A stretch of 64,000 nucleotides of DNA from Thermosulfurimonas sp. F29. Its GTDB lineage: Bacteria; Desulfobacterota; Thermodesulfobacteria; Thermodesulfobacteriales; Thermodesulfobacteriaceae. Every line of letters starts with the position of its first letter. Position 1 is the stretch's first letter. The DNA is taken from the NCBI RefSeq assembly GCF_019688735.1, contig NZ_JAIFYA010000003.1:186001-250000 (forward strand), read 5' to 3'. Positions 18,218 through 41,814 of this stretch are shown here, piece by piece. The notes beneath the pieces were generated by a model. That model had not been told where the DNA came from and did not search any database. It saw only the letters and a program-made list of their open reading frames with translations. The translations under genes were made by a program, and so were the position numbers.

Positions 18218-18271
18218 CGAGGAATTTGGCGCGCCCGGGAGGACTCGAACCTCCAACCTTTGGATTCGTAG
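18218..18271. repeat. attL: displaced 3' half of tRNA-Arg
   Basis: Matches 41761-41814 at 53 of 54 positions, from the anticodon loop of tRNA-Arg through CCA and nine bases beyond. It is not a functional tRNA because the 5' half is absent. Confidence 0.92.
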
Positions 18272-18477
18272 GAAAATACGCCCCTTCGTGCGAGGCAGTA
18301 AAAGCGAGAAAACGAAAGAAATCGTGCGTTCGTGAGGCGCTCTTTCTTTCCCTGGATTTTCCCTGAGTGGATGTGGTGTAGTTAAGGGTAAACATATACA
18401 ACATCTAGGGGTCCCGTGCACCGCAGCAGTGGCGAGGCATTCCGGCGAACGGGTTGAGAGGCGAGGAAAAGAGAGGA

Positions 18478-18499
18478 CCCCGGGAACTGCCCCCCGGGG
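18478..18499 (-). terminator. Terminator after the pilin-like gene
   Basis: A 7-bp GC stem (CCCCGGG) whose minus-strand product is followed by a T-rich tract, 8 nt past the stop of the pilin-like gene. The stretch 18272-18477 shows no gene. Confidence 0.55.
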
Positions 18500-18506
18500 T
18501 GGCGGG

Positions 18507-19169
18507 TTAGAAGACGAGCCAGATGTAAGCGTCACCCGACACACATCTAAAACCATTTATGACGTGCTCGCCCCACCGGACCGAGCCGTTCTCGGGACCG
18601 TCGCCGTTATCCAACCTTTCATCCAAGGCGTCGAGGAAGCGGATGAAGGGGTGGTCCGGCTCAGGCAAGCAGCGGTAATACACGTATCTGTTCCGCGGGT
18701 CGGCCTTCCAGACGTAGTCGAGCGGCGAAACGTTCGCGGACGCGCGCAGGCGAACAAATACGCGCCGGTAAGGGTTTTCGTCCGCGAGCCAGACCCAGAC
18801 CTCTGGGTCAAAAACAACTAGTTTGTTGCGCAAAACATCATCCGTGCTGAGATACCCTATGTCGAACAGCGCAGCTAGAAAGAAACCGCGACGAGAGAGT
18901 CCCGCAATATACAGCGGTTCGAGGTCTTGCGAGTATCCCTGCGTGCTCACTGTCGCATCCTTCACCCAGACATCCCCCTCACGGACGAGAGCGGACTGGA
19001 ACGCCGTTCGTACCGCCAGGACATCCTCTATCGCGGCGGCTATCCGTGCTTTTTCTATCCACTGTAGGATTAAAGGCGCAACGACCGCCGCGATAACGGC
19101 AACGACCGCGACGGCAAGAACCACCTGCAAGACCGCGCTTCCTCTCTGTCTGTGTCTCTGTCTGCGCAT
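18507..19169 (-). CDS. Type IV pilin-like protein
   Basis: A 220-aa protein with a short basic leader (MRRQRHRQRG) followed by a continuous hydrophobic helix (SAVLQVVLAVAVVAVIAAVVAP) and an amphipathic stretch, the layout of prepilin-peptidase substrates cut after Gly. The usual Glu at mature position 5 is Gln here. The C-terminal ~160 residues are a soluble domain with no family I recognise and only two cysteines. It might be a surface fibre or adhesin for DNA transfer; that is inference from its place in the element. The start follows GGGGGTGAGG. It is the leftmost gene of the element. Confidence 0.6.
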   Translation of the reverse strand: MRRQRHRQRGSAVLQVVLAVAVVAVIAAVVAPLILQWIEKARIAAAIEDVLAVRTAFQSALVREGDVWVKDATVSTQGYSQDLEPLYIAGLSRRGFFLAALFDIGYLSTDDVLRNKLVVFDPEVWVWLADENPYRRVFVRLRASANVSPLDYVWKADPRNRYVYYRCLPEPDHPFIRFLDALDERLDNGDGPENGSVRWGEHVINGFRCVSGDAYIWLVF

Positions 19170-19684
19170 ACCCTCACCCCCTACATGTTTTTCTATATGT
19201 TTGTAGGAAAGAAGAACGAGAGAAAAATTTCTTGCGTTGAGAAAAGGTTTTCGAGGACTGTTCGTCAGAAAAAAGGTTCACGGGAAAGAGAAAACAGAGA
19301 AAATTTCTGTTTATCCTCGCCTCACCTCGACGGCCTCGACCGGGTGAGGCATTCGAGGTTTTTCTTGGTTGGCTTGTAAGAGTTCCTACAAAGTAGCCAT
19401 CCACTTTACCTAAAACCTCGCCGGACCGCGTCTGAAAAACCTCTCTAACAGTTCCGCGTGCGTTCCGTGGACGGGTGGGGTCGAACCGCAGCTCAGAAAA
19501 GGCGTTCTGGTCGTTCCTGGCCTGAATATATTTCGAAATTTTAAGCGAAAATCTTAAACAGGTATCAAACCCTTTGTTAGACATATCCCCTCAAAATTCC
19601 CCCTCTATGTTTCGAAATTTTACGGATTTTTCCCTGGCTCTTCTTTTACCCGAAAAGGACAAAAAACGAGTGGGAGGTGTCGTT
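19170..19684. other. Divergent interval with possible small minus-strand ORF
   Basis: This 515-bp stretch separates the divergent pilin-like and zinc-protein genes. It holds one copy of the 18-bp palindrome (19374-19391) and a half-copy of ACAGGTATC (near 19557). A minus-strand frame at 19174-19584 (MSNKGFDTCLRFSLKISKYI...) is open for 136 codons with a weak GAGGGG site, but it crosses the palindrome and its second half looks like noise. Confidence 0.4.
19374..19391. repeat. Element palindrome, copy P1
   Basis: TTGTAAGAGTTCCTACAA, fitting consensus TTGTAnGAnnTCnTACAA. It lies between the divergent pilin-like and zinc-protein genes. Confidence 0.75.
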
Positions 19685-20178: not shown

Positions 20179-20196
20179 TTGTAAGAGTTCCTACAA
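20179..20196. repeat. Element palindrome, copy P2
   Basis: TTGTAAGAGTTCCTACAA, identical to copy P1, in a convergent gene-free interval. Confidence 0.75.
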
Positions 20197-21390: not shown

Positions 21391-21566
21391 TCCTCAACCT
21401 CGTACAGCTTTTTGAAGAGTTCGAGGGTTTCGTCTTTTAGTGAAAGCAGACCCAGTAAGCAGGCGGCGCGAAGGTCAAAAAGAAACGCCTCGGCGGGCTT
21501 CCCCGTCCGCCACGCCGCCTCTTCCAGTTCCGTCAGTTCCCTGAAGACCCGTTCTCGTCCTTGCAC
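21387..21566 (-). CDS. Small helical protein (family member 4), GTG start
   Basis: A 59-aa frame starting at GTG 21566 inside the 3' end of the polymerase gene and preceded by GGGGGTGG. It reads LFDLRAACLLGLLSLKDETLELFKKLYEVEE, similar to the core of the three downstream small proteins. Overlaps of 34 nt with the polymerase gene and 4 nt with the next gene fit a compact operon. Confidence 0.5.
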   Translation of the reverse strand: MQGRERVFRELTELEEAAWRTGKPAEAFLFDLRAACLLGLLSLKDETLELFKKLYEVEE

Positions 21567-23716
21567 TTTTCCACCCCCTTTCTTGCTTCCTCGAGGGTCT
21601 CGACGCGCCCGTCCTCGTAAACGAACAGCACGTCCTCTTCCGGGACGGCGTTCCCGCCTTTCACAAAAGGCAGAAGCTCGTCCATAGCCTCTTCCATCTT
21701 CGCACGGACTATGTCTGCTACTTCGAAACGCAGGTCCTCGCGCACGCAGTAAACCAGCTCGTCGTGAATGAGCAGGACGGGGAAAGCCGCGTCGAGCCAG
21801 CCGCGGCGGGCGAGTTCGACGCGGATTTTCACCATCGCGAGGGCGGCGATGTCAAAGCCGGTGGCCTGACCATGATAATTGAATGCTCGCTTTAACCCTT
21901 CAGCTAATGCCTTGCGTTCCGTCCACTCGCCGCGGTTGCGTTTTAGCGTAGTGTCCTTATCCCACTCTTCCTTACTGGGCGCTTTGGCTAACAGCGAACG
22001 CCCGCCCGGGGTGTAAACCCAAAACTGGCCGTCGTTGCGGTAGTAGATGCGGCGGATTCGACGATGCCAGTCGGCTATGCCCTGGTAGAGAGAAAAGAAA
22101 GCCGCGTGCCACCTCTCGCAGTCTTCAAGCGAAGGGTCCGCACCTTGCTGTTTGAGCGTCCGATAAAGGGCTCGCGGGGACCCGCCGTAAACGAGAAGGA
22201 AGTTCGCGCCTTTGCCTACCTGTCTTTCTTCTTTCGAGACTTCATCCTTGCCGAACAGCGCCGAGGCCGTGCGACGATGTAAGTCCCCGCCGTGCTTCCC
22301 GTCCACCAGGACCTCTCGCATCTTCTCTTCCTTTGCAAAGTGGGCGACTATGCGTATCTCTTGTCCGGGAAAATCGGCTCTGATAAAAACGAACCCCGGC
22401 GGTGGGACGAGCAGGTCCTTCTTGTACTGCCGCGGGATTTGAAGTAGGTTGGGGTTGCGGCAGACATAGCGCCCGGTCGAAGCCCCGCAAGCGCCGACGA
22501 TGATACGCGCCGGGTCCGCCGCTACGTAACCGGCTAACAGGTCGAACTCTTTTTTAATCTTCCCCAACTCTATCGCCTCAATGACCAGGTCTACCGCGTC
22601 CGGGGGAAGCTTCCCCGCCTCAATCATTTTTACGAGCTCGGCCTTGGCGGTTTTGTTGAAGCCGTCAACCTCGACCCCAAACTTGCGCAGTCTCTCGACA
22701 ATCTTCCGGTTCTGCGAGTACTTGAAACCCCACTTCCGGGCGAAGTCTTCCCCGCGTTTATCTACTGCCTTTCTCAACTCTTCCACGCGTTCTGTGTAGC
22801 GAGGATTGACGCGGTAGTAACGTTTGAGGGAAGTTTCGAGCCGGACGTGTTCAACGAGCCAAACGCAGAGCAGGTCCAGGCCGTCCCGCTTCCAACCCGC
22901 CCGTAACAGCGCGTCGCGTTGCGCTCTGTAAACGTGTAAAAGAACCGCGGCATCCCTGGCGGCATACTCGAGCTGGCTCTGGGAAAGTTCCGTTTTGTTC
23001 CAGTCTGAGGCTTGCTCGTCTTTTGAAAGTTCGAGGTCGAGATACTTTTTCACCACCGACGCGAGGCTCGGTCCCGGCACGGTGGGACGCCGAGCATGGG
23101 TACCCTGAACTAGACGTTCAAAAATCATTGTGTCCCACACTCTGGACGGAATCTCAGCCCAGGTCCCGGCGGCCTCGCGCCAGACGGCGAGGTCAAACGC
23201 CGCGTTGTGGAAGACCCACAGTTTGTCTTTCCCCACCTCAAAAAGGCGTCTCAACCGCCCGGCGGCGTCGCCCAGGGCGAAAAGGTCGAGTATGTAGACC
23301 TTCCTACGTCCGGTGTAAATTGAGAAAAGCCGAGGCTTCATTCGCCAGGGTATCACCTTTTCCGCGGCGTCCTTGTCTTCAGCGACGGTCTCAAAATCCG
23401 CGTAGACCACCTTTGCCTGAGAGACCGCCCGCAGGGCTTCTTCAAAACCCGCATCGTCCCTCACCAGGACCCACTCGCAATCGAGAGGGTGTTTTGTAAG
23501 GATTCCTACATTTGAAGTGTCTTTGGTAGGTTTGGTAGGTAAAACGGTCCGGGGCGTCAAGCGGAAAGGCTTCTCTTCCGCCGCCCGCCGCGCCTTGACC
23601 GCTTCCACCAGGCGGCTGCGGCGAGGGGTGGGGTGGCGGTTCGTCTTAAGGCGAACCGCCAGTTCCACTGCCCGCTCGTCCCTCTCGAAGTCAAGCGCCA
23701 ACCTCAACCAAGCCAT
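21533..23716 (-). CDS. Family A DNA polymerase with 3'-5' exonuclease
   Basis: A 727-aa replicative-type polymerase. The proofreading exonuclease is complete: DFE (107-109), N171/D175 in HNAAFDLAVW, and Y251/D255 in YAARDAAVL. Polymerase motif A is RADFPGQEIRI (D448, E453), a variant of DYSQIELR. Motif B is RQVGKGANFLLVYG (R498, K502, F506, Y510), and motif C is HDE 651-653. There is no 5'-nuclease domain. The start follows GGAGGT. It lies in one operon with the primase-helicase and Rep-like genes, so it probably copies the element. The host's own Pol I is not in this window. Confidence 0.93.
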   Translation of the reverse strand: MAWLRLALDFERDERAVELAVRLKTNRHPTPRRSRLVEAVKARRAAEEKPFRLTPRTVLPTKPTKDTSNVGILTKHPLDCEWVLVRDDAGFEEALRAVSQAKVVYADFETVAEDKDAAEKVIPWRMKPRLFSIYTGRRKVYILDLFALGDAAGRLRRLFEVGKDKLWVFHNAAFDLAVWREAAGTWAEIPSRVWDTMIFERLVQGTHARRPTVPGPSLASVVKKYLDLELSKDEQASDWNKTELSQSQLEYAARDAAVLLHVYRAQRDALLRAGWKRDGLDLLCVWLVEHVRLETSLKRYYRVNPRYTERVEELRKAVDKRGEDFARKWGFKYSQNRKIVERLRKFGVEVDGFNKTAKAELVKMIEAGKLPPDAVDLVIEAIELGKIKKEFDLLAGYVAADPARIIVGACGASTGRYVCRNPNLLQIPRQYKKDLLVPPPGFVFIRADFPGQEIRIVAHFAKEEKMREVLVDGKHGGDLHRRTASALFGKDEVSKEERQVGKGANFLLVYGGSPRALYRTLKQQGADPSLEDCERWHAAFFSLYQGIADWHRRIRRIYYRNDGQFWVYTPGGRSLLAKAPSKEEWDKDTTLKRNRGEWTERKALAEGLKRAFNYHGQATGFDIAALAMVKIRVELARRGWLDAAFPVLLIHDELVYCVREDLRFEVADIVRAKMEEAMDELLPFVKGGNAVPEEDVLFVYEDGRVETLEEARKGVEKCKDENGSSGN
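23494..23511. repeat. Element palindrome, copy P3 (within the polymerase gene)
   Basis: TTGTAAGGATTCCTACAT, one arm position off the consensus, inside the 5' part of the polymerase coding region. Confidence 0.55.
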
Positions 23717-23751
23717 CGCCGCACCTCCTATTTAGTTTTGTTGTTCCCCTT

Positions 23752-23789
23752 TAATGGGGCGGGCTGTATAGAACAGCCCGCCCCATTTA
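23752..23789. terminator. Large symmetric hairpin between Rep-like and polymerase genes
   Basis: The arms ATGGGGCGGGCTGT and its complement surround a 6-nt loop with A/T flanks on both sides. Next to it is a 12-bp direct repeat (AAAGTTATTGTT twice, about 23790-23813). It may be a terminator/attenuator or part of the origin beside the iterons. Confidence 0.6.
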
Positions 23790-23826
23790 AAGTTATTGTT
23801 AAAGTTATTGTTAAGGGCTGAAACGG

Positions 23827-24639
23827 TTACAGCCTCAAGGGTTTCCGGGCACGAGCGTCCGTTTTGGGTCCGCGAAGCGTCCGTTTTGGGTCCGCGAAGC
23901 GTCCGTTTTGGGTCCGCGCGAAAAGTTTGTTTTCGAACCTGAGCGAACCGTCCGCGGCATGCGAGAGAGGTATGTTTAGTAGAGGGGCTATCCGCGAAAC
24001 GTGTTTGCGGTAGAACTCTCTTACGTGCCGGATGCGAGGTGAGGGGGCATATACGTGTAATGTTAGTATCTTCCAGAGAAAATCCTCTCTTTTCCCCTGT
24101 CTCAGGTCTCTAGCGTGTGCGAGAAGCTTTAAATATGCATAGCGCGCATGTCGTCCACGCAGAGCGTGAAAAAGGCGCACGTCCAAGGCAACGCAAGCCC
24201 CTTTATTAAGGGCGGATATCCAGGTTTTAAGGAAAACATCGTCGAACTCTACATAAATACCCTGGTCAAGCACGGTTCTACGCAAAATACGTTCAAAACG
24301 CGGGATTTTAGGTGATTTATAGACGCTATCTTTCGTATTACATTTAAAAGAGGTCAGGAAACGGACGCTTTCTCGTATTCGTTCTCGCGTTTTGGCGTTT
24401 AACGGAAGAGCACAGACTCGCGCTACTTCGTGTGCGCTCGTTTTAAGCGAGAAGTACTTTCCTTTTTGGCGGTACAAAGCTACCAAAGCGGCGAGAACGA
24501 GGGTGTCAAAAGGATTTATGCGGTAGGTGTAGAAAACACCCGCGACGCAGTCTACGTCGTCTTCATGTTCGATACGTCGCGCAAAGACCCAGGGACCGGT
24601 TAAAAACCAGTTTGGTATGCGTATGCTAGACTTTTGCAT
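23827..24639 (-). CDS. Plasmid Rep-like replication protein
   Basis: A 270-aa protein with a winged-helix-like first half (NPFDTLVLAALVALYRQKG..., EVARVCALPLN) and a second basic helical region (RHARYAYLKLLAHARDL...). This layout is reminiscent of iteron-plasmid initiators, but no signature is decisive. Support comes from context: three 22-bp tandem repeats form the 3' end of its own gene, and the neighbours encode a primase-helicase and a polymerase. ATG 24639 follows GGGGGTGATAAG. It overlaps the upstream gene by 14 nt. The C-terminal tail is translated from the iterons. Confidence 0.5.
   Translation of the reverse strand: MQKSSIRIPNWFLTGPWVFARRIEHEDDVDCVAGVFYTYRINPFDTLVLAALVALYRQKGKYFSLKTSAHEVARVCALPLNAKTRERIRESVRFLTSFKCNTKDSVYKSPKIPRFERILRRTVLDQGIYVEFDDVFLKTWISALNKGACVALDVRLFHALRGRHARYAYLKLLAHARDLRQGKREDFLWKILTLHVYAPSPRIRHVREFYRKHVSRIAPLLNIPLSHAADGSLRFENKLFARTQNGRFADPKRTLRGPKTDARARKPLRL
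23855..23920. repeat. Three tandem 22-bp iterons, candidate origin
   Basis: Units at 23855-23876, 23877-23898 and 23899-23920 share GCGTCCGTTTTGGGTCC; only the last two bases of the third unit differ. The 22-bp spacing (two helical turns) is typical of Rep-binding iterons. They lie inside the Rep-like coding region. Confidence 0.8.
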
Positions 24640-26578
24640 TCTTATCACCCCCTTTGACGGATTTACCAGTTTCGCTGAGAGCATCTTGTATGCACTGCGG
24701 TTTCGCTGTCTGGTAGGTTAGCTCTTCATCCTTCCGGAAGAGGTTTAGATAGACCGTGTCAAATTTACTTTGTCTGTTAGCTTTGACGCACACCGCAGCG
24801 ACCCAGTCGCGACATGCCTCAACAGCGTGGGATTTGAGTTTTCTGATAGAAGGCGGCAACCCAAGATGCGCTTTTAGAAGCGCGACGACAAAACGAGTGG
24901 TATTTTGAATGTTCATTACGCCTGAAATGGCGCTTGCTATCAACTCTTTATTGTCAAAATCTAAAGCTTCTTTAGCTATCTCGCTAAGAAGAGCTTTGTT
25001 CATGTGGTGAAGAATGAAGATAGTAGCGCCCGTCTTTTTTGCTATGTGGTAGAAGTGTTTAAACGTTTCGGTGACGTCCAGATTGTTATTTGCATCCACG
25101 CCTAAGGCTGAAAGGTGGTCTACGAAGATTAGCGAGAAACCTTCGTGGGCCAGCGCGGTTACGTAGCTGAGCAGTTTCTGGGCTTCTGGTGTAATGCGCT
25201 CGTGACGGAAAAAGCGCATACCCGGAATGTCGAGCGTTTCATCGTCCTCGATGACAAACCAGGTTTCGGCTTTGCTTCGTTCTAGTAAAAACGCCCGGTC
25301 CTGTTCTGGGAGGCGGGCTTTTAGCCAGGACAGCCTTTCTAACAGGTCTACGCGAGGCTCTTCGAAAGAAATAAAGGCGGCCTTCAAACCTTGAAGCCCT
25401 GCAAGTAGGCAGACATAAAGAGCGAGGGTAGTTTTCCCCACTTCACCAAACCCCGCGAGCAGAGCAGCGCTACGACGGGGGATGTGAAATGGGACTTCTA
25501 ACAACGGCGTTGATTTTTCAATGTTGTCAGCGTCAAGGAACGCGTCCCTGCGGTGAAGGTACAGTTCGGGGAAGGCTTTTTCAGCTTCGGCGCGAATCGT
25601 CAGACGTTCTATCTGCGCATTTTGAAGAAAATGCGCTCTACTCTCGCAGAGACGTAGAAAATTTTCTCTCGAAAGAGAAACGTCTTTGAAAGCTTCATCC
25701 GGGTCTTTAGCGTGAGGATTAAGGCTTTCGTACCGTAAAACGAAGACATCCGCGAACCTGATTCGCCGCAGAGCCTCTTTCAGCGCCTCGAATCCGGCGC
25801 GGTCCCGGTCGGGGGCAAGGATGATGATGGGAAAAATTTCAGCGAGCATTCGTCCTACCTGTGGTAAGGCAGACGCCCCACCCGCCGCAACGGGAACGAT
25901 TGAGGGGTCCCGGACGGCTCGCGCTATTTGAAGAGCATCAAACTCACCTTCGACCAGGACCAGGGCTGTTTGTGACGGTTCTAGAGGTCGTCTGGCAAAG
26001 AAGACGATATTTCCGCCGTCGTTTGAGTTGTCTGAAAAGAAGAATCGCTTTTCGCGGGGTGGACGAAACTTCCAACGGCTCAGCCCGGTGGTGGGGTCGT
26101 GATAACGGAAAGCGATGTAAGCGGAACCATCGCGTTCTTCTATACTCAAGACGCCTTCTAACAGGAAGTCGGCGGCGTCTTCACCAAGGCGCTCGCGTAG
26201 GTATTTGAAACAGTCGTCTTTTGAGTACTTTTTTTCTTCCCGGTGGGTTTGAGGGACTTCCGGTTCAACATCCCCATTTCTGTCTGAAATAGAGAGTTTA
26301 TCTGCTTCAATGTGACCTGATATCTGACAGCCGAAGCATTTAAAGCGAACCTTGTTTTCCCCGGTTCCCTTACGCAAGCTTAAGGTGAACGAAGGTGAAG
26401 TGTCTTTTCTTCCCACTCTTTCAGGGTGGAAGGGGCATAGCGCCGTGTGGTAAAAGTACCCAGCGCTTTCGCGGAACGGCGACCAGGTGAAGTCATGGTT
26501 GGGAAACTGTTTTTCTAGCTGCTTGCGAGCTTCCTCGAGAAGCTTGACCGCATCCTCTTTCCTTGCTACTTTATTCAT
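24626..26578 (-). CDS. Primase-helicase (CHC2 zinc, TOPRIM and RecA-like domains)
   Basis: A 650-aa fusion resembling phage T7 gp4 and plasmid primase-helicases. The N-terminal zinc motif is C48-x2-H51...C81-x2-C84 (CPFH, CFGC). The TOPRIM domain has E210 in LVEGEFDALQ and D257-R-D259 in LAPDRDRAG. A RecA-type ATPase follows with Walker A GFGEVGKT (376-383) and Walker B LIFVDHLSALG near 471. It would unwind DNA and prime the lagging strand. ATG 26578 follows GGAGGT. It is the second gene of the replication operon. Confidence 0.88.
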   Translation of the reverse strand: MNKVARKEDAVKLLEEARKQLEKQFPNHDFTWSPFRESAGYFYHTALCPFHPERVGRKDTSPSFTLSLRKGTGENKVRFKCFGCQISGHIEADKLSISDRNGDVEPEVPQTHREEKKYSKDDCFKYLRERLGEDAADFLLEGVLSIEERDGSAYIAFRYHDPTTGLSRWKFRPPREKRFFFSDNSNDGGNIVFFARRPLEPSQTALVLVEGEFDALQIARAVRDPSIVPVAAGGASALPQVGRMLAEIFPIIILAPDRDRAGFEALKEALRRIRFADVFVLRYESLNPHAKDPDEAFKDVSLSRENFLRLCESRAHFLQNAQIERLTIRAEAEKAFPELYLHRRDAFLDADNIEKSTPLLEVPFHIPRRSAALLAGFGEVGKTTLALYVCLLAGLQGLKAAFISFEEPRVDLLERLSWLKARLPEQDRAFLLERSKAETWFVIEDDETLDIPGMRFFRHERITPEAQKLLSYVTALAHEGFSLIFVDHLSALGVDANNNLDVTETFKHFYHIAKKTGATIFILHHMNKALLSEIAKEALDFDNKELIASAISGVMNIQNTTRFVVALLKAHLGLPPSIRKLKSHAVEACRDWVAAVCVKANRQSKFDTVYLNLFRKDEELTYQTAKPQCIQDALSETGKSVKGGDKNAKV

Positions 26579-26940: not shown

Positions 26941-26966
26941 TTTCATCACCCCCTGCAAAATGTCTT

Positions 26967-31773: not shown

Positions 31774-34355
31774 TTAGAGGGTTTTTTCCAGGTCTTCGAA
31801 GGTCTCTGCGCCTCTGCCCTTAGCGAACGCATCCGCCCTGGGGGATAGGCTGTCCGCGACGGTCTTTACCGCCGCGCCTTCGCCGCCTGCGAAGGCGGTC
31901 GTTATCCGGTTTTGAGCTTGTGCTTCCGCCTGCTGGAACACCCCCGTCACCGCGCCCATCGAGAACGCGCCGTAAAGCATCGGGCGATACTCTTGTCCGA
32001 AGACCACCTGGTGGGCCAACATGGGAAGAAGAGTCAAGCCGAAACTCAAACCGAGAGGCCAGAACAAATCCGTTATCAGTTTGAGAGGGTTTTGGACGCT
32101 TAACCCTAGAAAACTGTGCATGTATGCGTTCAATATTGACCAAAAATAAGTCAAACCGTTCGAAAACAGATTCGAGATAAAACTCAGCGTCATCGCGCTT
32201 GCCACGCCGAGAGCCGCGAGTTCCGCACCCACCGCTACCGGGACGAAAGCAAATCGCGCCATCGGGATGAGCGAGAATTCCCCTCTCTGCTCGTCCGCGC
32301 CCACCGTAGCCGTCATGGTCTTTCCGAACGCAAAGAGCAGCCACACCGGTAATAACGCTATCCCCGCCGTGGTTCCATAGAGAGCGGTAAAGTAGCCGAG
32401 GGTATACATGAGAAGTAAGCCTGAAACCGGAAGCATCGAGAGAGCCATGATGGCTATTCTTACCGGTCCTTCGAAGAGTTTGACCGCTCGCGAGAGAAAA
32501 GTAGCGAGTTTCGAAACTATCTGGTCGAGGCCGAGTTTTTTGAGGAATTTCGCTGTGAAACCGGTTCCTACTACGCCTGCCACAACCTCATTACCGTTAA
32601 TCCAGTCGTCGGTCTCTTTATTTTCGCTTACCCCAGGCTCTTTAACTTTGAACCCCGACCACGGAATTATCCCTTTTACGGGCGCAAGCGCGCTTCTCAG
32701 AACGCCGGACGCGTCCGCGAGGTTCCCATACTCGCCGGGTCCGCCCTCACTACCCGGAACGAGAGGCACCACCTCGGCAAACACCAACCGGTCCGTGAGA
32801 AGCGAAGCGTAGACGGAAGAATTGCCGAACCGGTACTCGTCGTACTTGTCGATGTTCCTTTGCGCAACCTTTCTCATGTAGAGAAGAGCGCCGGTAATGT
32901 TTTTTCCCAGCTCAAGACACGCCCGGTTGGCGCGAAACTGGGTGTCGTCTGAACGCAACAACTCGTCGTATTTCCTGTACGCGGCCTCGAGATTTTCAGG
33001 GCTACTACAAGCCTCGTCCCGGACGCTGAAGCCGAAGTCCGCAGAGTCGAGAAGCCCCGCAAGCGCGCCTATCAAAGAGTTTCCACCGCCGAGAGAGAAA
33101 CTACCGCCGAAAAACTCGCCTACAAGGTTGTTTACGATATCGTTCAGGCTGCCGAACCCTTGCCCGCTTCCGGTACTTGCCACCGCAGGTTTTTTCACCT
33201 TCACCTTGCACGGGTCGAGGACCTGGACGAGGCCATCGCCTCTTTCCCAGTCCACATCGTCCGGGTGAATGTCGAGGTCTGCCCTGCAATTTTCGAGAAA
33301 GAGCGGAAGGTGAGTGCGCACAAACAGCTGAGGTGAGACGCCCGCTTTCTGCGCGTCGAAGTAGTTCTGCCCCACGTTTGCCGTGACTATCGCGGGGTTT
33401 TCGTCGAGGGTCCCCTCACGGGCGAGTTTCACTATCCGGTCCATCGGAACCGCCTTGGTCACATAAGCCACGTCGGGACTCTTTACCCGCCGCACGGCGT
33501 ACCTCGCGTATCCATACACCCCGCCAGGGAACCTCTGAAGGCTTGGCGCGACGATGGTCGTCTCAGGCAACTCCCCCGCGCCGTATACTTCCGCGCTGTC
33601 TGCCAAGGCCGCAAACGAGTAGTCGCTGAACCGTCCTTGTCCCTTTAAAGCCCTTTCTGCGTCTTTCATCGCCCTTCGTATTTTCCCCGCGAGGAACTTC
33701 CCCTTGAACACATCCAGCTCGGCCAGGTGTGACGCGGTGAACGATAGCGAAGCGAAGGTGTTGTAGAGAAAGATGAGAGCCTTCCCCGCCCCGGAACGGC
33801 TGGAAACCTCGTTTAAGGCGGCGAGCGCGCCGCGCAGACCTTTATCCCCGCTTCCCGGCTCGACGACATAGACGGTCATAACTTCTTTCTTGAACTCGCC
33901 CGTAGCGCAGGCGTTCTCGCCGGGAAGCGTCGCAAACGACACGCCCTCGGTGAGGTACGCGTACGCCTCAAACGGCATTCCGCCGAAAGCGTCCACCTTG
34001 ACCTCACGGGCGTCGTTGCCGGGGTTGAGAAAGGTGATTGCGCGGTTAACGCTCGTTCGAAACCGGGATTCCACGCTGTCGGGAATAACCGACCTGTCCC
34101 CCACCTTAATGACCGCGCCTAAGAGAAGCGTAATAAGAAAGGTATTCAATACCAACTTCGCCGCCCAGATGGCAATGGCATCCGGTCGCCTATGAAGTGC
34201 GTCACCAGAGAAACCGTGAGGTAGTAGACGACCACGACGGTAGCTATCGCGGGCAAAGCATAGAGAAGGATGGTAAAGACTCGCGCCATCAGTTCCGCCT
34301 GATGCGCGTCGAAAGCAAGTATCTGAGAGGTGGCTGATAGAGAAAGTCCGTCCAT
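31774..34355 (-). CDS. Large polytopic membrane protein, possible DNA-transfer channel; frame change near 34180
   Basis: The true start is probably ATG 34355 (MDGLSLSATSQILAF), preceded by GGGGGTGAGG. That frame encodes a membrane helix (LLYALPAIATVVVVYYLTV) but stops at 34146. The frame one base back continues from DAIAIWAAKLVLNTFLITLLLG for about 800 residues to 31774. It has a large extracytoplasmic region containing cysteines and then five or so helices (ALSMLPVSGLLLMYTLGYF, FAFVPVAVGAELAALGV, FWPLGLSFGLTLLPML). It is either one gene with a frameshift or two overlapping genes. The architecture recalls TraG/VirB6-like channel proteins, but I see no decisive motif. Confidence 0.6.
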
Positions 34356-34548: not shown

Positions 34549-34920
34549 ATGAACAAAGCGGCTTGGAAGAAGTTTCTTCCCTACACGGTTGAAGACGGTT
34601 TGGTTCGTTACCCCTGCCCCTTGTGTCACGAGGGTGAGGTCCAGGCTGAAGTGGAACGAGAGAGGAAGCAACGGATTTTGGGCGGGGTGACGGTCGAGGT
34701 TGAAACCGGCATCGCATCTTGTTCCGCCTGCGCGGCGCCACAGGCGCTTCATATCCGTCGCGAGTACGACTACGAGGAATGGGAAGTAAAAGAGACTATT
34801 GAGGTGGTTTATCGAGATTTTAACGCTTTATGCTGGCGTATCGGTTATCAGCGCGAAAGAACAGCGAAAGTTAGCTGTATCCCTGAATTTTTCTTGCCAG
34901 AGGTGGGGGATGAGGGGTAA
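34549..34920 (+). CDS. Zinc-ribbon protein upstream of the coupling ATPase
   Basis: A 123-aa protein with two CxxC pairs (YPCPLCHEG and ASCSACAAP) forming a likely zinc ribbon around a beta-rich segment (GGVTVEVETG). I recognise no family. GGGGT precedes the start, and the 3' end overlaps the coupling-protein gene by 11 nt. The 34366-34548 interval before it holds only the two divergent gene starts. Confidence 0.65.
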   Translation: MNKAAWKKFLPYTVEDGLVRYPCPLCHEGEVQAEVERERKQRILGGVTVEVETGIASCSACAAPQALHIRREYDYEEWEVKETIEVVYRDFNALCWRIGYQRERTAKVSCIPEFFLPEVGDEG

Positions 34921-36700
34921 AATTTCAGCCGCGACGGTTAAAACCCGCGTCGTCCGCATCCTCGACCGCGCTTTCGCTTGGTTAGACGATTTACGACTCA
35001 GACCGGGACATCTGTTTCTTATCTGGCTCGGTCTGTCGGGACTGTTTTTTATCCGCGAAGTGGGGGCCTGGGTTGCTCAAAGACTGGTAGAGTATCCTTG
35101 GGGTCTTCGTTTCCTCGCCGCCTTTCCTCACGCGGCAGACGGGGGGATTAATTATGCTCTCTACAACGCTTACCTATCCGCCATCCTCGCCACCGTTCCT
35201 GTCGTCATCCTCGCTCTCAGTTATGGCGACTTTTCCCGCTATGGACGGGCAAGAGATGAGAAAGTCGCGCTGGATGTGCTGGCAGGCTGGCTCTCGCGGC
35301 GGGCGGAACTCGCGCAATTGCGCGGACGCATCGAGTTCGGACGCGTCGTGGACCCTCGTTCGTTGCGCCTGGGTCCGAGGTGGGGGGTGAACTTAGAGCA
35401 GCTATTGAGCCCCCACTGCTTCATTTTTGGACAGTCGGGGTCGGGGAAGACGAGTACTAGCCTCGTCCATTTTCTTCGCCGCTACGCGGGGGACTCTCAA
35501 GTGGGCTGCCTTGTCTTCGACGCAAAAGACGGTCTCATCAGGTGGACGGACCAGGCAGGGTTACCTTTCCGCTACGCCGGACCCGTTCTGGATGGAATAG
35601 ACGAGAAAAAGAAAGCTAGCGTGAGTTTGCTGTCGTTATGCTGGACTTATCCGACGCTCATTGACGGTATTAGGCGTATTTTTATCGATTATCTGAAAAT
35701 CCCCGATGATGCTAACACGAACCAGACCGACCCCAGTGCGTCCCGGTGGGAACGCTACGGAAAGGAATGTTTCGCGGGACTCGTGGCGTGGTGGGTTTTG
35801 GTTGAAAAGATGAAGAAACAGGAATTAACAAACAGAAAGCTTTATCAATACGTCCGTTCGTTTCACTTTCAGCAAATACCTCAATTTTATGAGGAATTGC
35901 GCTCTCTGTCTCAAGCAAGCGACAGAGAGACGGCAGAGTTAGCTAGTTTCGCTTTGAACGCCCTGTCACCCCTCGCAGGGAAGAAGCAGGGTGAGCACGC
36001 GGAAAGCATCAAAACCAACGTTCGCCAGGTTTTGGAACTATTTGGTTCTAGTGATTTTGCAGAATTCGCCCAGGGCGAGGAAGTGGACCCTATTGCACTT
36101 CTTAATCAAGGGGCGAATCTCTTTTTCACTACGATGTCACGGGGTCGAATCTTACCAAGCCTCTACAACATCTTTCTAAACTACATCCTGCAGCAATTCA
36201 CCAACGACGCCCCTCGCCTTCGCTTGGTGGTGTTGGTAGATGAGGCAAGCAGTTATAGTGTTAAGATGATGCAGGACATCCTCGATAAGGGGCGCAGCTG
36301 GGGTGTCTCTCTCACCTGCGTCTGGCAAGATTTGCATCAAATCTCGCGCATTTACGGCGAACAGAACGCCCGGGCGTTTCTTACAAATGTGAGCCTGATT
36401 TTCGCTTATGTCCTCTCAGCGAAAAGCATCGGCGAGATAATCGACTGGAAATTGGGCACGGATTTGATTACACGCGAGAGAACCCCCGCCCCGGCTCACG
36501 CGGCAAGGTTCGGGTTGCCGTTTTTGGGGTCTCACCAAGAACAGATTAGAGAAGCGCGGGTTCCCATCGCCACCCTCTTGGATGTTCTTGGTCGCGTGAA
36601 CGAGAAATACACCCGCCAGGGGGTGGGGATGGGCTGCCTTGTGATGGCAAATTTAAAAAGCGGTTTGCGCAGATTTTTAAGCGTCAACGAATGGGTGTAA
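34910..36700 (+). CDS. VirD4/TraD-like type IV coupling ATPase
   Basis: A 596-aa membrane-anchored motor. Two transmembrane helices (about 34-50 and 87-104) precede a RecA/FtsK-type domain with Walker A GQSGSGKT (174-181), Walker B LVVLVDE (439-445) and the coupling-protein motif VWQDLHQISRIYG. Such proteins recruit the relaxase-DNA complex and pump DNA through the inner membrane. The start at 34910 follows AGAGGTGGGGG. A MobV-type relaxase gene lies 1.4 kb downstream on the same strand. No VirB4 ATPase is found in the element. Confidence 0.85.
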   Translation: MRGKISAATVKTRVVRILDRAFAWLDDLRLRPGHLFLIWLGLSGLFFIREVGAWVAQRLVEYPWGLRFLAAFPHAADGGINYALYNAYLSAILATVPVVILALSYGDFSRYGRARDEKVALDVLAGWLSRRAELAQLRGRIEFGRVVDPRSLRLGPRWGVNLEQLLSPHCFIFGQSGSGKTSTSLVHFLRRYAGDSQVGCLVFDAKDGLIRWTDQAGLPFRYAGPVLDGIDEKKKASVSLLSLCWTYPTLIDGIRRIFIDYLKIPDDANTNQTDPSASRWERYGKECFAGLVAWWVLVEKMKKQELTNRKLYQYVRSFHFQQIPQFYEELRSLSQASDRETAELASFALNALSPLAGKKQGEHAESIKTNVRQVLELFGSSDFAEFAQGEEVDPIALLNQGANLFFTTMSRGRILPSLYNIFLNYILQQFTNDAPRLRLVVLVDEASSYSVKMMQDILDKGRSWGVSLTCVWQDLHQISRIYGEQNARAFLTNVSLIFAYVLSAKSIGEIIDWKLGTDLITRERTPAPAHAARFGLPFLGSHQEQIREARVPIATLLDVLGRVNEKYTRQGVGMGCLVMANLKSGLRRFLSVNEWV

Positions 36701-37043: not shown

Positions 37044-37445
37044 ATGAGTGATAGAAAAAAGAAAACAGGTCTTCAAAAAGACGCCGATTTCGACCTGGAC
37101 TGGTTCGACTGGCTGTTTCCCATGCCCGGTCACGTCCCCAACCCTCGCGGCGTAGACCCGGACGAGGCGTTCCGGGACGAGAACGAGAACAGGAACAAGA
37201 ACGAAACAGAACAGGTCGAGGTGGGGAATCGGAACGACGCTAAAACCAAACCCTCGCCCCCACCCCTCAAAGAGCGCGTCGTTATCAAACGCATCCCCGC
37301 CCGGGTGGACGCACCCTGGGATGACGACGCCTTCCTCGACGCTATAGCAGACGCGGTCGCTTCCGCCGTCCTGGACGAGGCCGTCCGGCTGCGAGAAGAA
37401 GCGGAAACGAGGAAGGGAATGGCAAGGGTGGGGAAAGAGAAATAA
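37044..37445 (+). CDS. Hypothetical acidic, low-complexity protein
   Basis: A 133-aa protein with a Trp/Asp-rich start (DFDLDWFDWLFPMPGH), an Asn/Glu-rich linker (ENENRNKNETE) and a helical end (DDAFLDAIADAVASAVLDEA). I recognise no family. The start is uncertain: a TTG at 36966 or ATG 36984 would add an N-terminal stretch. Confidence 0.5.
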   Translation: MSDRKKKTGLQKDADFDLDWFDWLFPMPGHVPNPRGVDPDEAFRDENENRNKNETEQVEVGNRNDAKTKPSPPPLKERVVIKRIPARVDAPWDDDAFLDAIADAVASAVLDEAVRLREEAETRKGMARVGKEK

Positions 37446-37960
37446 ACCCAGGGCGGGGGTTCCCTTCACTCAGAATTATTCCTGACGAGTGGGTGGGAAT
37501 AATTCTATGCGCGGGAATTTGTTTGGGTGGGAATACGGGCTCTTTATTTCTCTTTATTTTTGGGTGGGGTTGGGGTCGAGGTGGAAGTCAAGGTCGAGGT
37601 CGGGTTGGGTCGGGTCCGGGCGGTCCGGGAAGAACTCGCCTCGCCTAACTTGTCCTAACTTGTATGACTTCATACAGGTTCATACAAGTTTACGCCTGAG
37701 ACTGAGACCCGCCCGCCCGAGACCGAGACCGGACCGCCGGGACCTAGAAACCCTCACCCGCCCGCCTGAAACCGAGACCGGGACAGCCTGCTCTCTGCTG
37801 GGATTTTACTTCCTTCGTAATCATGCGCCTTTTTCTTTTCGTTAGAAAATCTAGGCGCAGGATTTTCCTCGCTTCTTTTTTCTTTCAAAGAGGCTAAGCG
37901 TAATAATTCTAACAAAGGGAAAATCTTACAGAGGGAATTATTCACGAGAGGTGAGAAACG
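37446..37960. other. Structured noncoding region upstream of the relaxase operon; candidate oriT
   Basis: No gene is visible in 515 bp. It holds an 11-bp inverted repeat (37472-37482 with 37496-37506, AGAATTATTCC), related AATAATTC/GAATTATT arms at its right end (about 37903-37941), palindrome copy P6, direct repeats of CTAACTTGT and of a GAGACCGAGACC-type block (37683-37780). MobV relaxases usually nick at an inverted-repeat oriT just upstream of mob, which fits the position; the nick site itself is not identified. Confidence 0.45.
37660..37677. repeat. Element palindrome, copy P6
   Basis: TTGTATGACTTCATACAG, followed at once by another half-site (TTCATACAAG) and preceded by two CTAACTTGT half-sites. 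Confidence 0.7.
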
Positions 37961-38113: not shown

Positions 38114-38129
38114 GTAGGGGGTGATGCAA

Positions 38130-39338
38130 ATGCCTAAGAGTATCATACGAACCGGGAATGCTTTTATCCTGCAATTCAAGAGCTACCATCTCACCGATTC
38201 GGTTAAGGTCTTCCAGCACAATGTGAGGACCAGGGACTCGAAATGGGTCGACCCCACCCGCAGCGACCTCAACCTCTACTGGCAGGTCGAACCGAACCGG
38301 AAAGATATCGTCACTCATTTACAAGAGAGCTATCTTGGAAGAGTCGCGGCTTGGATAGGCGGGGGCGAACTCGCCGCTAGCCTGTTCGTCTTCGCTCTTC
38401 TCGAAGCCACCATCCGCCATTTGCGCGACCACCTCGTCCCCGCGGACGTTCGCACCTTCGAGGAACGAAAACAGGAACTGGAACGCCTCGCCGACAGCGG
38501 GGCTACGGAACTTCCCCCGGACTTCTCTTTCGCACCCTTCGCAAGGAAAGACCGCACGGTGTTTGTCCACGAGTGGGTGGTGAGCGCATCCAGTCCGTTC
38601 TTCCACAGCTTGATAGGTCGAGAACTGGTGAAAAGAGAGGATTATGAGGAAATAAGCCGGAACCCTAAACTTTTAGAGTGGGTAGCGGATAACATCCGCT
38701 TTTTCGGAAAAATCTACCGTTATTCCACCATAATCGCTACTCTTCACTTGGACGAGAAGGTCCCGCACCTTCACATCATGACCGCCCCGCTTTGGTTCGA
38801 TAGCGACCGCAGCCGCTTGTATTGGTCCGGTAAAAAGTTTTTGGGGGACAGGTATTCCGCCCGGTACCGGTTCTACGAGATTTTGACGAGTTACGAGGAA
38901 GCCGTGGGACAGAAGTACGGTTTAGGCAGAGGTCTTCGACAGGAACTCACCGGGCGAGACAAATACAACGTCCCCATCCAGGTCGTTCGCAAACTCACCT
39001 CGGCCATCCTCGCAGAAATCCGCCAGAGACTCGAACAGGGGGAAAAAATCGAAGACATCCTGGGGGATGAGAGGTTGTACGCCGGAATAAACAAGCACAT
39101 GAACTACACCGCCGAGATTACCGCCCAGAAAAACGAGGAACTGCTCAGAGAGGTTAGGGCTTTGCGGGACGAGAACCGGCGTCTCAAGGAAGCCCTCGAA
39201 GAGTTCCTGAACGCCCGGTCCGCAGAGGAACTCGTCACCGTCCAGACCAAGTTCGCTACCGCCCGCGCTAAACAGTCCGAGACGGTCGAGGCTGTCGAGG
39301 ACGAAAGAGTCGAGGAAACGGAAGCGCAGACCGCGTAA
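38130..39338 (+). CDS. mob: MobV-type relaxase (Mob/Pre family)
   Basis: A 402-aa plasmid mobilization enzyme. The N-terminus has the Mob/Pre phrase HNVRTRDSKWVDPTRSDLNLYW, and the metal-binding motif is HLDEKVPHLHIM (H206, D208, E209, H213, H215). A long helical C-terminus (ITAQKNEELLREVRALRDENRRLKEAL) would serve dimerisation. Members nick one strand at oriT and lead it into a recipient. ATG 38130 follows GGGGGTGATGCAA. The region upstream is rich in inverted repeats. Confidence 0.85.
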   Translation: MPKSIIRTGNAFILQFKSYHLTDSVKVFQHNVRTRDSKWVDPTRSDLNLYWQVEPNRKDIVTHLQESYLGRVAAWIGGGELAASLFVFALLEATIRHLRDHLVPADVRTFEERKQELERLADSGATELPPDFSFAPFARKDRTVFVHEWVVSASSPFFHSLIGRELVKREDYEEISRNPKLLEWVADNIRFFGKIYRYSTIIATLHLDEKVPHLHIMTAPLWFDSDRSRLYWSGKKFLGDRYSARYRFYEILTSYEEAVGQKYGLGRGLRQELTGRDKYNVPIQVVRKLTSAILAEIRQRLEQGEKIEDILGDERLYAGINKHMNYTAEITAQKNEELLREVRALRDENRRLKEALEEFLNARSAEELVTVQTKFATARAKQSETVEAVEDERVEETEAQTA

Positions 39339-39772: not shown

Positions 39773-39815
39773 CCTTCCATTCCTCACCTCGTATTTGTGC
39801 GCCTTTTTCTACCGC

Positions 39816-39954
39816 CAGGATTTTCTTTCGCGAAGAGTTATTCCTCAAAAGGCGCGGTATTTTACCTCGACAGGATTTTCTCTCGTTAAGAGTTATTCCT
39901 GAACCCGACAGTAAAATCCTAGGGTCGGATTTTCCTACCCACTTAAGAATTCCT
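39816..39954. repeat. Three 30-bp direct repeats upstream of the integrase
   Basis: Units at 39816-39845, 39871-39900 and 39925-39954 share GGATTTTC and a terminal (A)AGAGTTATTCCT; the first two differ at four positions and the third is more diverged. Starts are 55 and 54 bp apart. The remainder of 39773-40038 shows no gene. Confidence 0.7.
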
Positions 39955-40038
39955 AATCGAAATCCAGTGACCATTCTGCGGATTTCGTCCGCCGTTCTTT
40001 TTTCGAAACGCCCCCGAAACCGAAATCGGGGGTGAGGG

Positions 40039-41325
40039 ATGAGAGACGCGCTTGACGACCTGTTCTCGGTCGTGATAGTACCGGTACCCGGAAGGGGGAA
40101 GAAGACCGTGCGTGTCTATCCCAGACCGGCGAGGTGTCCTAAATGTAAGAAGCCATATAAAGAGGACCCTCGCGTCGGGTTCCGGTGTCCTCGCTGTCGT
40201 TCGAAGCCTGAACGTCTCTTCGTAAGCCTTAGCTGGCAGGGGAAGCTCGTCCGAGTCTATAGCGACAAGCAGGGGAATCCTCTCACCGACTTCCGCCAGG
40301 CGCAGAGGGTGCTGCAGCTGATAGCTCACGAACTTGAGACCGGCGAGTTTGACCCGACCCGGTGGGTGAAGAAGGAAGCGGAAAAGTTCCTCTTCAAAAA
40401 CCTCGCTCAGGAATACCTTGAAGAGCGAAAGAAAGCCATGACCCCTGCCGGGTTCGCCTCAAAAGAGTCCTGGTTCCGCAAGTGGCTCATCCCCACTCTA
40501 GGCGAACTCGATGTCCGAGACCTGAAAGCCTACCACCTCAACGACCTCAAAAAGGCCATGCTCGACGCCGGGCTTTCAAAGAGTTCGGTCAAAAAGGCTT
40601 TCGTGGAACTGAGAGCCTTCCTCAACTGGCTCAAGAGGCTTGAGAGAATAGAAAGACTTCCCTATTTCCCGGACAGAGACATTCGCCCGGAAGAACCGCC
40701 TATCCGCTGGCTTTCGCCGGAACAGCAAGCGTTGATTTTGTCTTACATCCCGCCGGAACACCGGAACATAATCGAGTTTGGCTTTCTCACCGGGCTTCGG
40801 ATAGGGGAACTTCGCGCCCTCATGTGGGACGCCGTGGACCTGCGGGAAGGCTACATCCTCGTCTTTCGGACCTTCTCAAACGACCGCTTGCTCGAAACCC
40901 CGAAAGAGAAAGCCGCGAAAGTTATCCCTCTCGTGGGACGCATCCGGGAAATCATCCAGGAACAAGCCAGACAAAAACGGTCCATGTTCGTCTTCTCTTA
41001 CCGGGACCCTCACTATAAAGAGAGATGGACCGCCTACCCCTACAAAAGGTTGCTCGACATCTTCAAACAAGCCGCAAAGAAAGCCGGAATAAACATTTCT
41101 CTCTACGCTGCTATTCGGCACAGTTTCGCCATGCAGAGATTGAAAGGTGGGTATTCTTACGAAGAGGTTGGCGCCGCCCTGGGACACAAGTCCCCGCAGA
41201 CCACGAGAAGGTATGCCAGACTCAGGGCTGAGATGGTGGAATCCATCTTCGCCTCGCCGGTGAAGGTGGTGTCCATCGAGGAAGCCCGGAAGAAACGAAG
41301 GAAAAACGGGGGCAAAGATGGATAA
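40039..41325 (+). CDS. int: Tyrosine integrase of the element
   Basis: A 428-aa recombinase next to attR. An N-terminal zinc ribbon (CPKCKKPYKEDP...CPRC) and arm region precede a SAM-like core-binding domain (about 120-215) and the catalytic domain with TGLRIGELRAL (Arg), TPKEKAAKV (Lys), AAIRHSFAMQ (Arg), LGHKSPQTT (His) and RRYARL (Tyr). The first His of the usual HxxR is Ala (AAIR). It should integrate the circular element into tRNA-Arg. ATG 40039 follows GGGGGTGAGGG. Confidence 0.92.
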   Translation: MRDALDDLFSVVIVPVPGRGKKTVRVYPRPARCPKCKKPYKEDPRVGFRCPRCRSKPERLFVSLSWQGKLVRVYSDKQGNPLTDFRQAQRVLQLIAHELETGEFDPTRWVKKEAEKFLFKNLAQEYLEERKKAMTPAGFASKESWFRKWLIPTLGELDVRDLKAYHLNDLKKAMLDAGLSKSSVKKAFVELRAFLNWLKRLERIERLPYFPDRDIRPEEPPIRWLSPEQQALILSYIPPEHRNIIEFGFLTGLRIGELRALMWDAVDLREGYILVFRTFSNDRLLETPKEKAAKVIPLVGRIREIIQEQARQKRSMFVFSYRDPHYKERWTAYPYKRLLDIFKQAAKKAGINISLYAAIRHSFAMQRLKGGYSYEEVGAALGHKSPQTTRRYARLRAEMVESIFASPVKVVSIEEARKKRRKNGGKDG

Positions 41326-41491
41326 GAAAACAGAAGTCGAAAGGATAATCGAGTTCCTCGAAAAAGAAGGGTTCCAACCCGTCACCGAGGAACACAAAAA
41401 CGAACACTGGTACAAAACCGCCATGGCCCCGGTGGACTGCTTCGAGGAAGAAGAACAACCTGCCCTCACCAAGAAGTCCGGCGCTAACTAA
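41318..41491 (+). CDS. Small acidic protein overlapping int
   Basis: A 57-aa frame (MDKKTEVERIIEFLEKEGFQ...) starting in the last codons of int with CGGGGGCAAAG upstream. It may be co-translated with the integrase. Its position would suit a recombination directionality factor, but no DNA-binding motif is visible, so this is only a guess. The interval 41492-41760 after it shows no gene. Confidence 0.5.
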   Translation: MDKKTEVERIIEFLEKEGFQPVTEEHKNEHWYKTAMAPVDCFEEEEQPALTKKSGAN

Positions 41492-41760
41492 CCGGTCGCT
41501 TCACCTTAAACCCTCTTCCTTACCGCTTCCTAACCGGGCTTCATTCCGTCGTTTTTAGCCCAAAACAAAATCACCCGTAATCGCCGAAAACCGAGAACAG
41601 ACCCCCTGATTTAACAGAGATTTAACGCATCGTGCTACCGGAACCGTGTCGAAAAACAAACGAGAAGTCGGGGGGTTATGCGAAACTTTCCCTGGGTTTT
41701 CTCTCGCAACTCGTTCTCAATAAGAGGCGTCAAGGGGTGTTTCGTAAGTGGGGAACTTAT

Positions 41761-41814
41761 CGAGAAATTTGGCGCGCCCGGGAGGACTCGAACCTCCAAC
41801 CTTTGGATTCGTAG
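41761..41814. repeat. attR: 3' half of the intact tRNA-Arg
   Basis: Direct-repeat partner of 18218-18271 with one mismatch (41765 versus 18222). It runs from the anticodon loop past the CCA end. Confidence 0.92.

Follow-up and report, generated by a model that had tools for sequence, protein, structure and literature searches.

What kind of mobile DNA joins a phage-style synthesis set (primase-helicase and proofreading PolA) to plasmid-style mobilization (MobV relaxase and VirD4-type ATPase), and does it copy itself? The question is raised by a 23.5-kb element at about 18.2-41.8 kb in the window, that is, the whole stretch of 64,000 nucleotides of Thermosulfurimonas sp. F29 DNA analysed here, in which both sets were found as an earlier note had described them. 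Mobilizable elements are usually thought to depend on host DNA synthesis. In our reading, to which we give a probability of roughly 0.7, the locus represents an integrative and mobilizable element (IME) whose replication set is unusually full and which borrows the mating pore of a helper.

Borders and integration site

The element is flanked by a direct repeat derived from tRNA-Arg(ACG), spanning the 3' 45 nt of the tRNA gene through the anticodon loop. Of the 54 positions, 53 are identical in the two copies, and 49 of these form an uninterrupted exact run (18223-18271 = 41766-41814); the tRNA-derived repeat of the earlier note therefore stands, and its length of 54 bp was slightly generous. 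The G+C content is mostly 0.50-0.58 in the element, compared with mostly 0.58-0.65 in the flanks. Borders, repeat, intact tRNA gene and lower G+C all agree that an integrated element is real, and the integrase reported next to the repeat is of the tyrosine type and lies next to the intact tRNA gene (Table 1).

In other genomes of the same genus, the same genes lie downstream of tRNA-Arg and the left side differs; among the genomes compared, we found neither a copy of the element beside tRNA-Arg nor an unoccupied site whose left flank matches. Beside its own tRNA-Arg, the relative G001 retains about 390 bp that resemble the right end of the element, an indication that related elements use this site. 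The integrase family is distributed across the genus and beyond, and no shared cargo was found near its other copies, several of which lie on contigs that end too early to tell. The 57-aa ORF that overlaps the integrase stop is a candidate directionality factor, judging from its position and from the conservation of its DNA in G001, in G005:C56 and at C1:531897 of the host itself.

Table 1. Features of the element, in window coordinates (the start codons chosen for its genes are guesses)
Feature	Position	Strand	Evidence or remark
attL	18218-18271	.	partial copy, 3' part of tRNA-Arg
Type IV pilin/pseudopilin-like protein, 220 aa	18507-19169	-	weak: PHROG 2.5e-8, NCBIfam 5.5e-4
Palindrome copy 1, exact	19375-19390	.	
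Palindrome copy 2, exact	20180-20195	.	
Family A DNA polymerase, 727 aa	21533-23716	-	DNA_pol_A 4e-40; 3'-5' exonuclease 5e-23
Palindrome copy, 1 mismatch	23495-23510	.	inside polymerase gene
Perfect hairpin, 15 bp, 5-nt loop	23753-23787	.	between rep and pol; z -8.8
AT-rich 12-bp direct repeat TTAAAGTTATTG, 2.3 copies	23787-23814	.	candidate unwinding element
Putative Rep-like initiator, 285 aa, orphan	23827-24684	-	start perhaps 24639
Three tandem 22-bp iterons	23854-23919	.	inside 3' end of rep ORF
Primase-helicase	24626-26578	-	AAA_25 3e-17; Toprim_2 9e-7; CHC2-type Zn ribbon 7e-5
Winged-helix regulator-like protein, 107 aa	26635-26958	-	MarR_2 5e-4; first gene of replication run
Palindrome copy 3, exact	27101-27116	.	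upstream of wHTH-primase-rep-pol run
231-aa ORF	28861-29556	+	N-terminal hydrophobic segment; possibly secreted
Palindrome copy 4, exact	29667-29682	.	
Second, XerA-like tyrosine recombinase, 211 aa	30066-30701	-	catalytic domain only (domain searches)
Orphan membrane protein, 792 aa	31774-34152	-	from TTG overlapping upstream stop
Single-TM ORF, 69 aa	34149-34355	-	stop overlaps start of 792-aa ORF
Zn-ribbon-like protein, 123 aa	34549-34920	+	overlaps coupling ATPase start
VirD4/TraG-type coupling ATPase	34910-36700	+	TraG-D_C 1e-8; T4SS-DNA_transf 9e-8
Intergenic region with inverted repeats	37445-37960	.	upstream of mobV; candidate oriT region
Palindrome copy 5, exact	37661-37676	.	upstream of mobV
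Single-TM ORF, 50 aa	37961-38113	+	directly before mobV
MobV-type relaxase, 405 aa	38121-39338	+	Mob_Pre 5e-6; MobV 3e-16; readable HxDExxPHxH motif
Tyrosine integrase, 428 aa	40039-41325	+	Phage_integrase 3e-19; PHROG integrase 2e-47
57-aa ORF	41318-41491	+	overlaps integrase stop
attR	41761-41814	.	overlaps 3' half of intact tRNA gene
tRNA-Arg(acg), intact integration target	41770-41846	-	ARAGORN

Replication genes, origin-like cluster and palindromes

The polymerase, primase-helicase, relaxase and coupling ATPase, all named in the earlier note, passed the domain searches with readable catalytic motifs. Every exonuclease and polymerase motif can be read in the proofreading family A enzyme, and domain searches found no 5'-nuclease domain in it; in trees it forms a long branch without a firm partner. 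The primase-helicase is of the DnaG type, with a CHC2-type zinc ribbon, a TOPRIM domain and a RecA-like ATPase (the listed ORF extends to 26656, and the likely ATG is at 26578). Because no clamp, SSB, ligase or 5'-nuclease was recognised in the element (nor any SSB match among the ORFs scanned), the statement that it carries its own replisome was too strong.

A strong hairpin, AT-rich repeats and iterons lie within 170 bp, and the iterons adjoin the AT-rich region and the candidate initiator gene, as in the layout of iteron replicons. The cumulative GC-skew minimum of the element, newly observed here, falls on this cluster, at 23749, GC skew and gene strand being partly confounded in the element. 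The putative initiator was assigned from its position and the iterons: no homologue was found in Pfam, NCBIfam, PHROGs (nothing below 0.39), plasmids or PDB, and its AlphaFold model is uninformative (pLDDT 37). Of the Rep-like protein with iterons proposed earlier, the three 22-bp iterons are thus present and the Rep identity is the weakest part. The position of the iterons within the coding end of rep, together with the want of a recognisable initiator family, counts against our reading of the element.

Also new here is the palindrome TGTANGANNTCNTACA, of which the 2.35-Mb genome contains five exact copies, all five in the element and between called genes. About 0.06 copies per genome are expected from base composition, a comparison for which the pattern had first been defined on the element and the genome was counted afterwards. 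The palindromes are probably bound by a regulator encoded by the element, most likely the winged-helix protein, which would put the replication and mobilization genes under one switch.

Mobilization and rival readings

The coupling ATPase (listed ORF beginning at 34799) has two N-terminal TM segments, and the relaxase reaches a MobV score of 60, under the NCBI cut-off of 100. No pMV158-type nic sequence was found in the form searched. The 792-aa membrane protein has an N-terminal TM, a long middle region and three predicted C-terminal TMs, and could, as a guess, be a transfer-channel or exclusion protein. Pfam scans found no other pore families of a T4SS in the element, and a PF19044 search of the genome for VirB4-type ATPases matched contig C4 only, where a TraC/VirB4-like locus is also recognized (TIGR02746 3.5e-25). 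At the level of genes, the element has the features of an IME, namely a site-specific integrase with att repeats, its own relaxase and no recognised complete mating-pore set, and shows no T4SS with VirB4 of the kind that defines an ICE.

From these genes and sites we infer the following steps. The integrase, perhaps with the coupled 57-aa protein, would recombine the tRNA-Arg repeats, and excision would free a circle of about 23.5 kb and leave an intact tRNA gene behind. On this circle, the initiator-like protein may bind the three iterons and open the adjacent AT-rich repeats; the primase-helicase would then unwind and prime, and the element's own polymerase would extend, with clamp, SSB, ligase and primer removal supplied by the host. 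For transfer, the relaxase would nick an oriT upstream of its own gene, and the VirD4-type ATPase would pass the strand to the mating pore of another element, for which the locus on C4 is a possible helper.

The gene content also admits a bolder reading, in which the element represents a self-copying mobilizable lineage, whose excised circle is copied by the DnaG-type primase-helicase, the orphan initiator with its iteron origin and the proofreading family A polymerase, largely without the host replicative polymerase, and in which one regulator of its own, acting on the five palindromes, couples replication to MobV/VirD4 export; we regard this as possible but doubtful. Conversely, the polymerase and primase-helicase could act after transfer, in DNA repair or completion, or could limit competing DNA, in an ordinary IME that is copied passively with the chromosome. 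Mutants of Ppol, the primase-polymerase of ICETh2, still replicate or excise that element, and Ppol is reported to act against environmental DNA (PMC7693054), so the polymerase of the present element might not replicate it either; this polymerase also matches the PADLOC model of RT-associated PolA, through the shared PolA domain only. However, the initiator-like gene, iterons, AT-rich repeats, primase-helicase and polymerase are clustered behind one upstream palindrome, which gives them a replicon-like look, and small cyanobacterial plasmids place a primase-helicase gene directly before the exo/PolA gene; a role outside replication thus seems unlikely.

That the element is a decayed ICE or integrated conjugative plasmid, which lost its mating-pore genes, might be suggested by its own VirD4-type ATPase, the two orphan TM proteins nearby and the pilin-like gene; with its large genes intact as open frames and no VirB4-type ATPase of its own, we consider this quite unlikely. 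Still less probable, and indeed very improbable, is the reading as a decayed phage or phage satellite, with replication genes retained and mobilization genes acquired. A primase-helicase beside PolA is common in phages (for example, phage Softsoap), and polymerases about equally close to that of the element occur on viral contigs, but the element's own enzyme shows no firm grouping with phage enzymes; the relaxase, coupling ATPase and iterons are plasmid features, and none of 20 element proteins matched capsid, terminase or other structural, packaging or lysis functions in PHROGs at the level of sequence profiles. When the polymerase was used in profile scans, related enzymes turned up at 80 genome loci and 80 viral loci; one of these loci has a weak match to the primase-helicase, and none has a match to the relaxase, coupling ATPase or initiator. 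Direct scans of viral contigs found one weak locus for the polymerase and none for the primase-helicase, coupling ATPase, relaxase or membrane ORF.

In 297 genomes of the phylum, the polymerase (at 1e-30) and the orphan membrane ORF (863-aa query) matched only themselves; the coupling ATPase gave weak matches there and none in plasmids, and the primase-helicase gave weak partial matches in 99 relatives. The two findings that the earlier note had set against its own proposal, a gene order matching a named phage or plasmid family and hidden capsid or terminase genes, were both sought, and neither was seen, the latter among the 20 proteins scanned. Its proposal of a new class in thermophiles holds in so far as the searches turned up no relative that shares this gene order, but the element is a single copy and each ingredient is known elsewhere; the link to thermophiles is plausible, but with no second full copy found it is not established. 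If the IME reading is true, an element with its own initiation, priming, unwinding and proofreading synthesis would make phage-type replicons and IMEs harder to tell apart, and its compact, presumably thermostable pair of primase-helicase and proofreading PolA would be useful for biochemistry.

Comparison with known systems

Every component is known from other mobile DNA, and we found no other element with the same combination. The contrast drawn earlier, that own polymerases are typical of phages, does not hold, because cyanobacterial plasmids and published integrative elements carry their own polymerase or primase. In pAL20118a, pDongsha4a and pGM04, a polymerase of the same architecture (27% identity over about 620 aa) lies beside a primase-helicase, with a tyrosine recombinase nearby in the first two, as in the element, and conjugative plasmids of Nostoc, Aulosira and Oscillatoria encode the same polymerase type. 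However, these relatives are recorded as plasmids with different initiator candidates, and the cyanobacterial plasmid primase is of the archaeo-eukaryotic type fused to DnaB_C, whereas that of the element is of the DnaG type with an AAA_25 ATPase.

The MobV IMEs (Tn4451, Tn5520, ATE-1 and IMESag-rpsI) integrate, encode a MobV relaxase but not a mating pore, and require a helper, and some IMEs encode a replication initiator (PMC5704250). The present element adds to this plan a VirD4-type coupling ATPase, a primase-helicase and a proofreading polymerase, and has tRNA-Arg as its target; its relaxase is only about 26-28% identical to plasmid MobV. Pipolins are likewise tRNA-integrated bacterial elements with a tyrosine recombinase and their own replicative polymerase, but the latter is the primer-independent piPolB of family B (PMC7385651), whereas the element has a family A enzyme and a separate primase. 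The Pol-SSB systems of SCCmec and related ones of Bacillota also place a family A polymerase on a mobile element near a helicase and recombinases; some of these polymerases have a full 3'-5' exonuclease, and they were proposed to be primases with a partner SSB (PMC10061031). In contrast, the element has a DnaG-type primase, no SSB that we recognised among the ORFs scanned, and tyrosine, not serine (Ccr), recombinases.

The PrimPol-PV1 elements are similarly tRNA-integrated, conjugative or mobilizable, and equipped with a primase and a helicase, but the primase is of the AEP type, and the available part of their description includes no family A polymerase (PMC5862659); the primase here is of the CHC2/TOPRIM type. 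ICETh1 and ICETh2 of Thermus resemble the element as small thermophile elements at tRNA genes with a tyrosine integrase, and ICETh2, with 47-nt repeats, carries a primase-polymerase plus a helicase; its enzyme is a PrimPol, and the parts of these reports that we consulted mention neither a family A polymerase nor MobV nor VirD4 (PMC7767461, PMC7693054). The element would be a clear test case of whether the polymerases that mobile DNA carries are there for replication or, as with ICETh2, for another role.

Borders and insertion site

The borders of the integrated element that the earlier note had placed at 18218–41814 are sound, and the observation made there, tRNA-Arg repeat and integrase included, was confirmed with minor corrections; the repeat, described there as 54 bp, is identical at 53 of 54 positions, 49 of them consecutive. 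Because the tRNA-Arg(acg) gene is intact (ARAGORN), the right copy corresponds to its 3' half and the left copy is a remnant. The tyrosine integrase adjoins the intact copy, and the G+C content is mostly 0.50–0.58 within the element versus mostly 0.58–0.65 in the flanks. The tRNA-Arg gene and the genes downstream of it (right flank) recur in the other genomes of the genus and in several further relatives, with about 70–78% DNA identity, but the left side of the locus in those relatives is unlike that of the window. The insertion target is thus conserved, but no clean empty site with a matching left flank was found among these genomes. In another genome of the genus, about 390 bp resembling the right end of the element lie next to its own tRNA-Arg, as a relic of a related element. 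The two 36-bp repeats just upstream of the integrase gene (86% alike) are possible arm-type sites. Immediately outside attL, broken pieces of another integrase from this family face tRNA-Leu(cag), a relic of an older element at this neighbouring tRNA gene.

Features of the element and its surroundings (window positions)
Feature	Position (strand)	Remarks
tRNA-Leu(cag)	17451–17537	
Integrase fragments	17811–18051 (-)	
Direct repeat	18218–18271; 41761–41814	
Type IV pilin-like protein	18507–19169 (-)	Cargo unusual for a mobilizable element
Polymerase (pol)	21533–23716 (-)	3'-5' exonuclease and family A polymerase; catalytic motifs readable; without 5'-nuclease
Cumulative GC skew minimum	23749	
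Initiator-like protein (rep)	23827–24684 (-)	
Primase-helicase	24626–26578 (-)	
Winged-helix protein	26635–26958 (-)	107 aa
18-bp tandem repeat AACCTCGACCTCGACTTC	28311–28370	3.4 copies; coding potential poor here
Inverted partners of AACCTCGACCTCGACTTC	37561–37602; 30758–30793	
XerA-like recombinase	30066–30701 (-)	
Membrane protein	31774–34152 (-)	792 aa
Transmembrane ORF	34149–34355 (-)	69 aa; TTGA overlap with the 792-aa ORF
Coupling ATPase	34910–36700 (+)	
Relaxase (mobV)	38121–39338 (+)	
36-bp repeats	39813–39848; 39868–39903	
Integrase	40039–41325 (+)	
Right-end ORF	41318–41491 (+)	57 aa
tRNA-Arg(acg)	41770–41846 (-)	

The integrase family is common in the genus and the family, and two more long copies exist in the host genome. 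Integrases of this family were located on host contigs C2 (474121–475368, 67%; 95758–96492, with an internal stop) and C1 (675267–676460, 42%), which indicates that several elements with this type of integrase, differing in their cargo, reside in the host; none of the replication and mobilization genes was found beside other copies of the family, some of which are on short contigs. At C1:531897–532019, DNA 86% like the start of the right-end module (57-aa ORF) likely represents a relic or another element.

Gene content and replication region

Among named families, the polymerase best matches the bacterial "bifunctional 3'-5' exonuclease/DNA polymerase". In the primase-helicase, a DnaG-type zinc ribbon and TOPRIM are fused to a RecA-like ATPase; the relaxase is MobV-like, and the coupling ATPase combines TraG/TrwB domains with two membrane segments at its N-terminus. 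The initiator-like protein, the 792-aa membrane protein and most of the small proteins are orphans. Hidden capsid or terminase functions, which the earlier note named as a possibility, were sought by a PHROGs scan, and none of the 20 proteins scanned gave a credible structural or packaging match. The overlap of the 69-aa and 792-aa ORFs suggests translational coupling, or alternatively may reflect a frameshift or assembly error.

Between rep and pol are a hairpin with a perfect 15-bp stem (z -8.8 for the RNA fold) and, after it, the AT-rich 12-mer TTAAAGTTATTG in 2.3 copies, followed by three 22-bp iterons within the end of the rep ORF. The skew minimum coincides with this cluster; gene strand may contribute to the skew, but its sign switches inside a same-strand gene run. 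Together these features support, but do not prove, a theta origin.

All five exact copies of the palindrome TGTANGANNTCNTACA in the 2.35-Mb genome are inside the element, which makes up 1% of that sequence (about 0.06 copies expected from base composition), a post hoc count, since the element itself had supplied the pattern beforehand. Such exclusivity is nevertheless hard to explain by chance. The five copies are between called genes, with the central GA[CG]TTC in the same orientation in each, and a sixth, with one mismatch, is inside pol. One copy precedes the winged-helix/primase/rep/pol run, and another precedes mobV. We favour the copies as putative operators for the winged-helix protein; alternatively, they are putative sites for the small XerA-like recombinase.

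Proposed cycle and comparison with known elements

In the favoured scheme, the integrase would excise the element, the circle would replicate in the theta mode from the iteron cluster by Rep, the primase-helicase, PolA and host helpers, and MobV with the VirD4-type ATPase would transfer it via the pore of another element. A candidate helper is a possible conjugative element on host contig C4, where a 912-aa TraC-like ATPase (TIGR02746, 3.5e-25) lies close to genes for a PilT-like ATPase, a secretin and pilins (about 22–41 kb) and a T4CP-like frame occurs at 139 kb; the contig ends show no terminal overlap. The strongest caution comes from a thermophile precedent, ICETh2, whose primase-polymerase is dispensable for its replication (PMC7693054): an element-borne polymerase is no proof of self-replication.

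Searches of the phylum sample, plasmids, phages and viral contigs gave no close relatives for the proteins of replication and mobilization. In a profile scan of named genomes, the nearest relatives of the polymerase (about 27% identity) were in cyanobacteria, an Aquificaceae genome and Pyrinomonadaceae, and viral polymerases scored similarly; in two trees it formed a long branch that joined no other sequence firmly, so that neither a phage nor a plasmid origin is favoured. The same gene order was sought elsewhere, as the earlier note had proposed, and the combination did not turn up. The note's suggestion of a new class joining phage-type replication to plasmid-type mobilization is partly supported: the combination holds, but each ingredient is known, and the element, with one copy known so far, is a novel IME variant and not yet a proven class of its own.

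A review covers both MobV IMEs and those that carry replication initiators (PMC5704250), and AEP-primase IMEs use tRNA genes as integration sites (PMC5862659). Pipolins are tRNA-integrated and encode a family B polymerase (PMC7385651), and PolA-SSB pairs occur on SCCmec and Bacillota elements (PMC10061031). Exo/family A polymerases of this kind are also found on conjugative cyanobacterial plasmids, and phages likewise carry them. In the plasmids pAL20118a, pDongsha4a and pGM04, a primase-helicase gene immediately precedes the exo/polymerase gene; however, the primase encoded there is archaeo-eukaryotic, whereas that of the element is DnaG-type.
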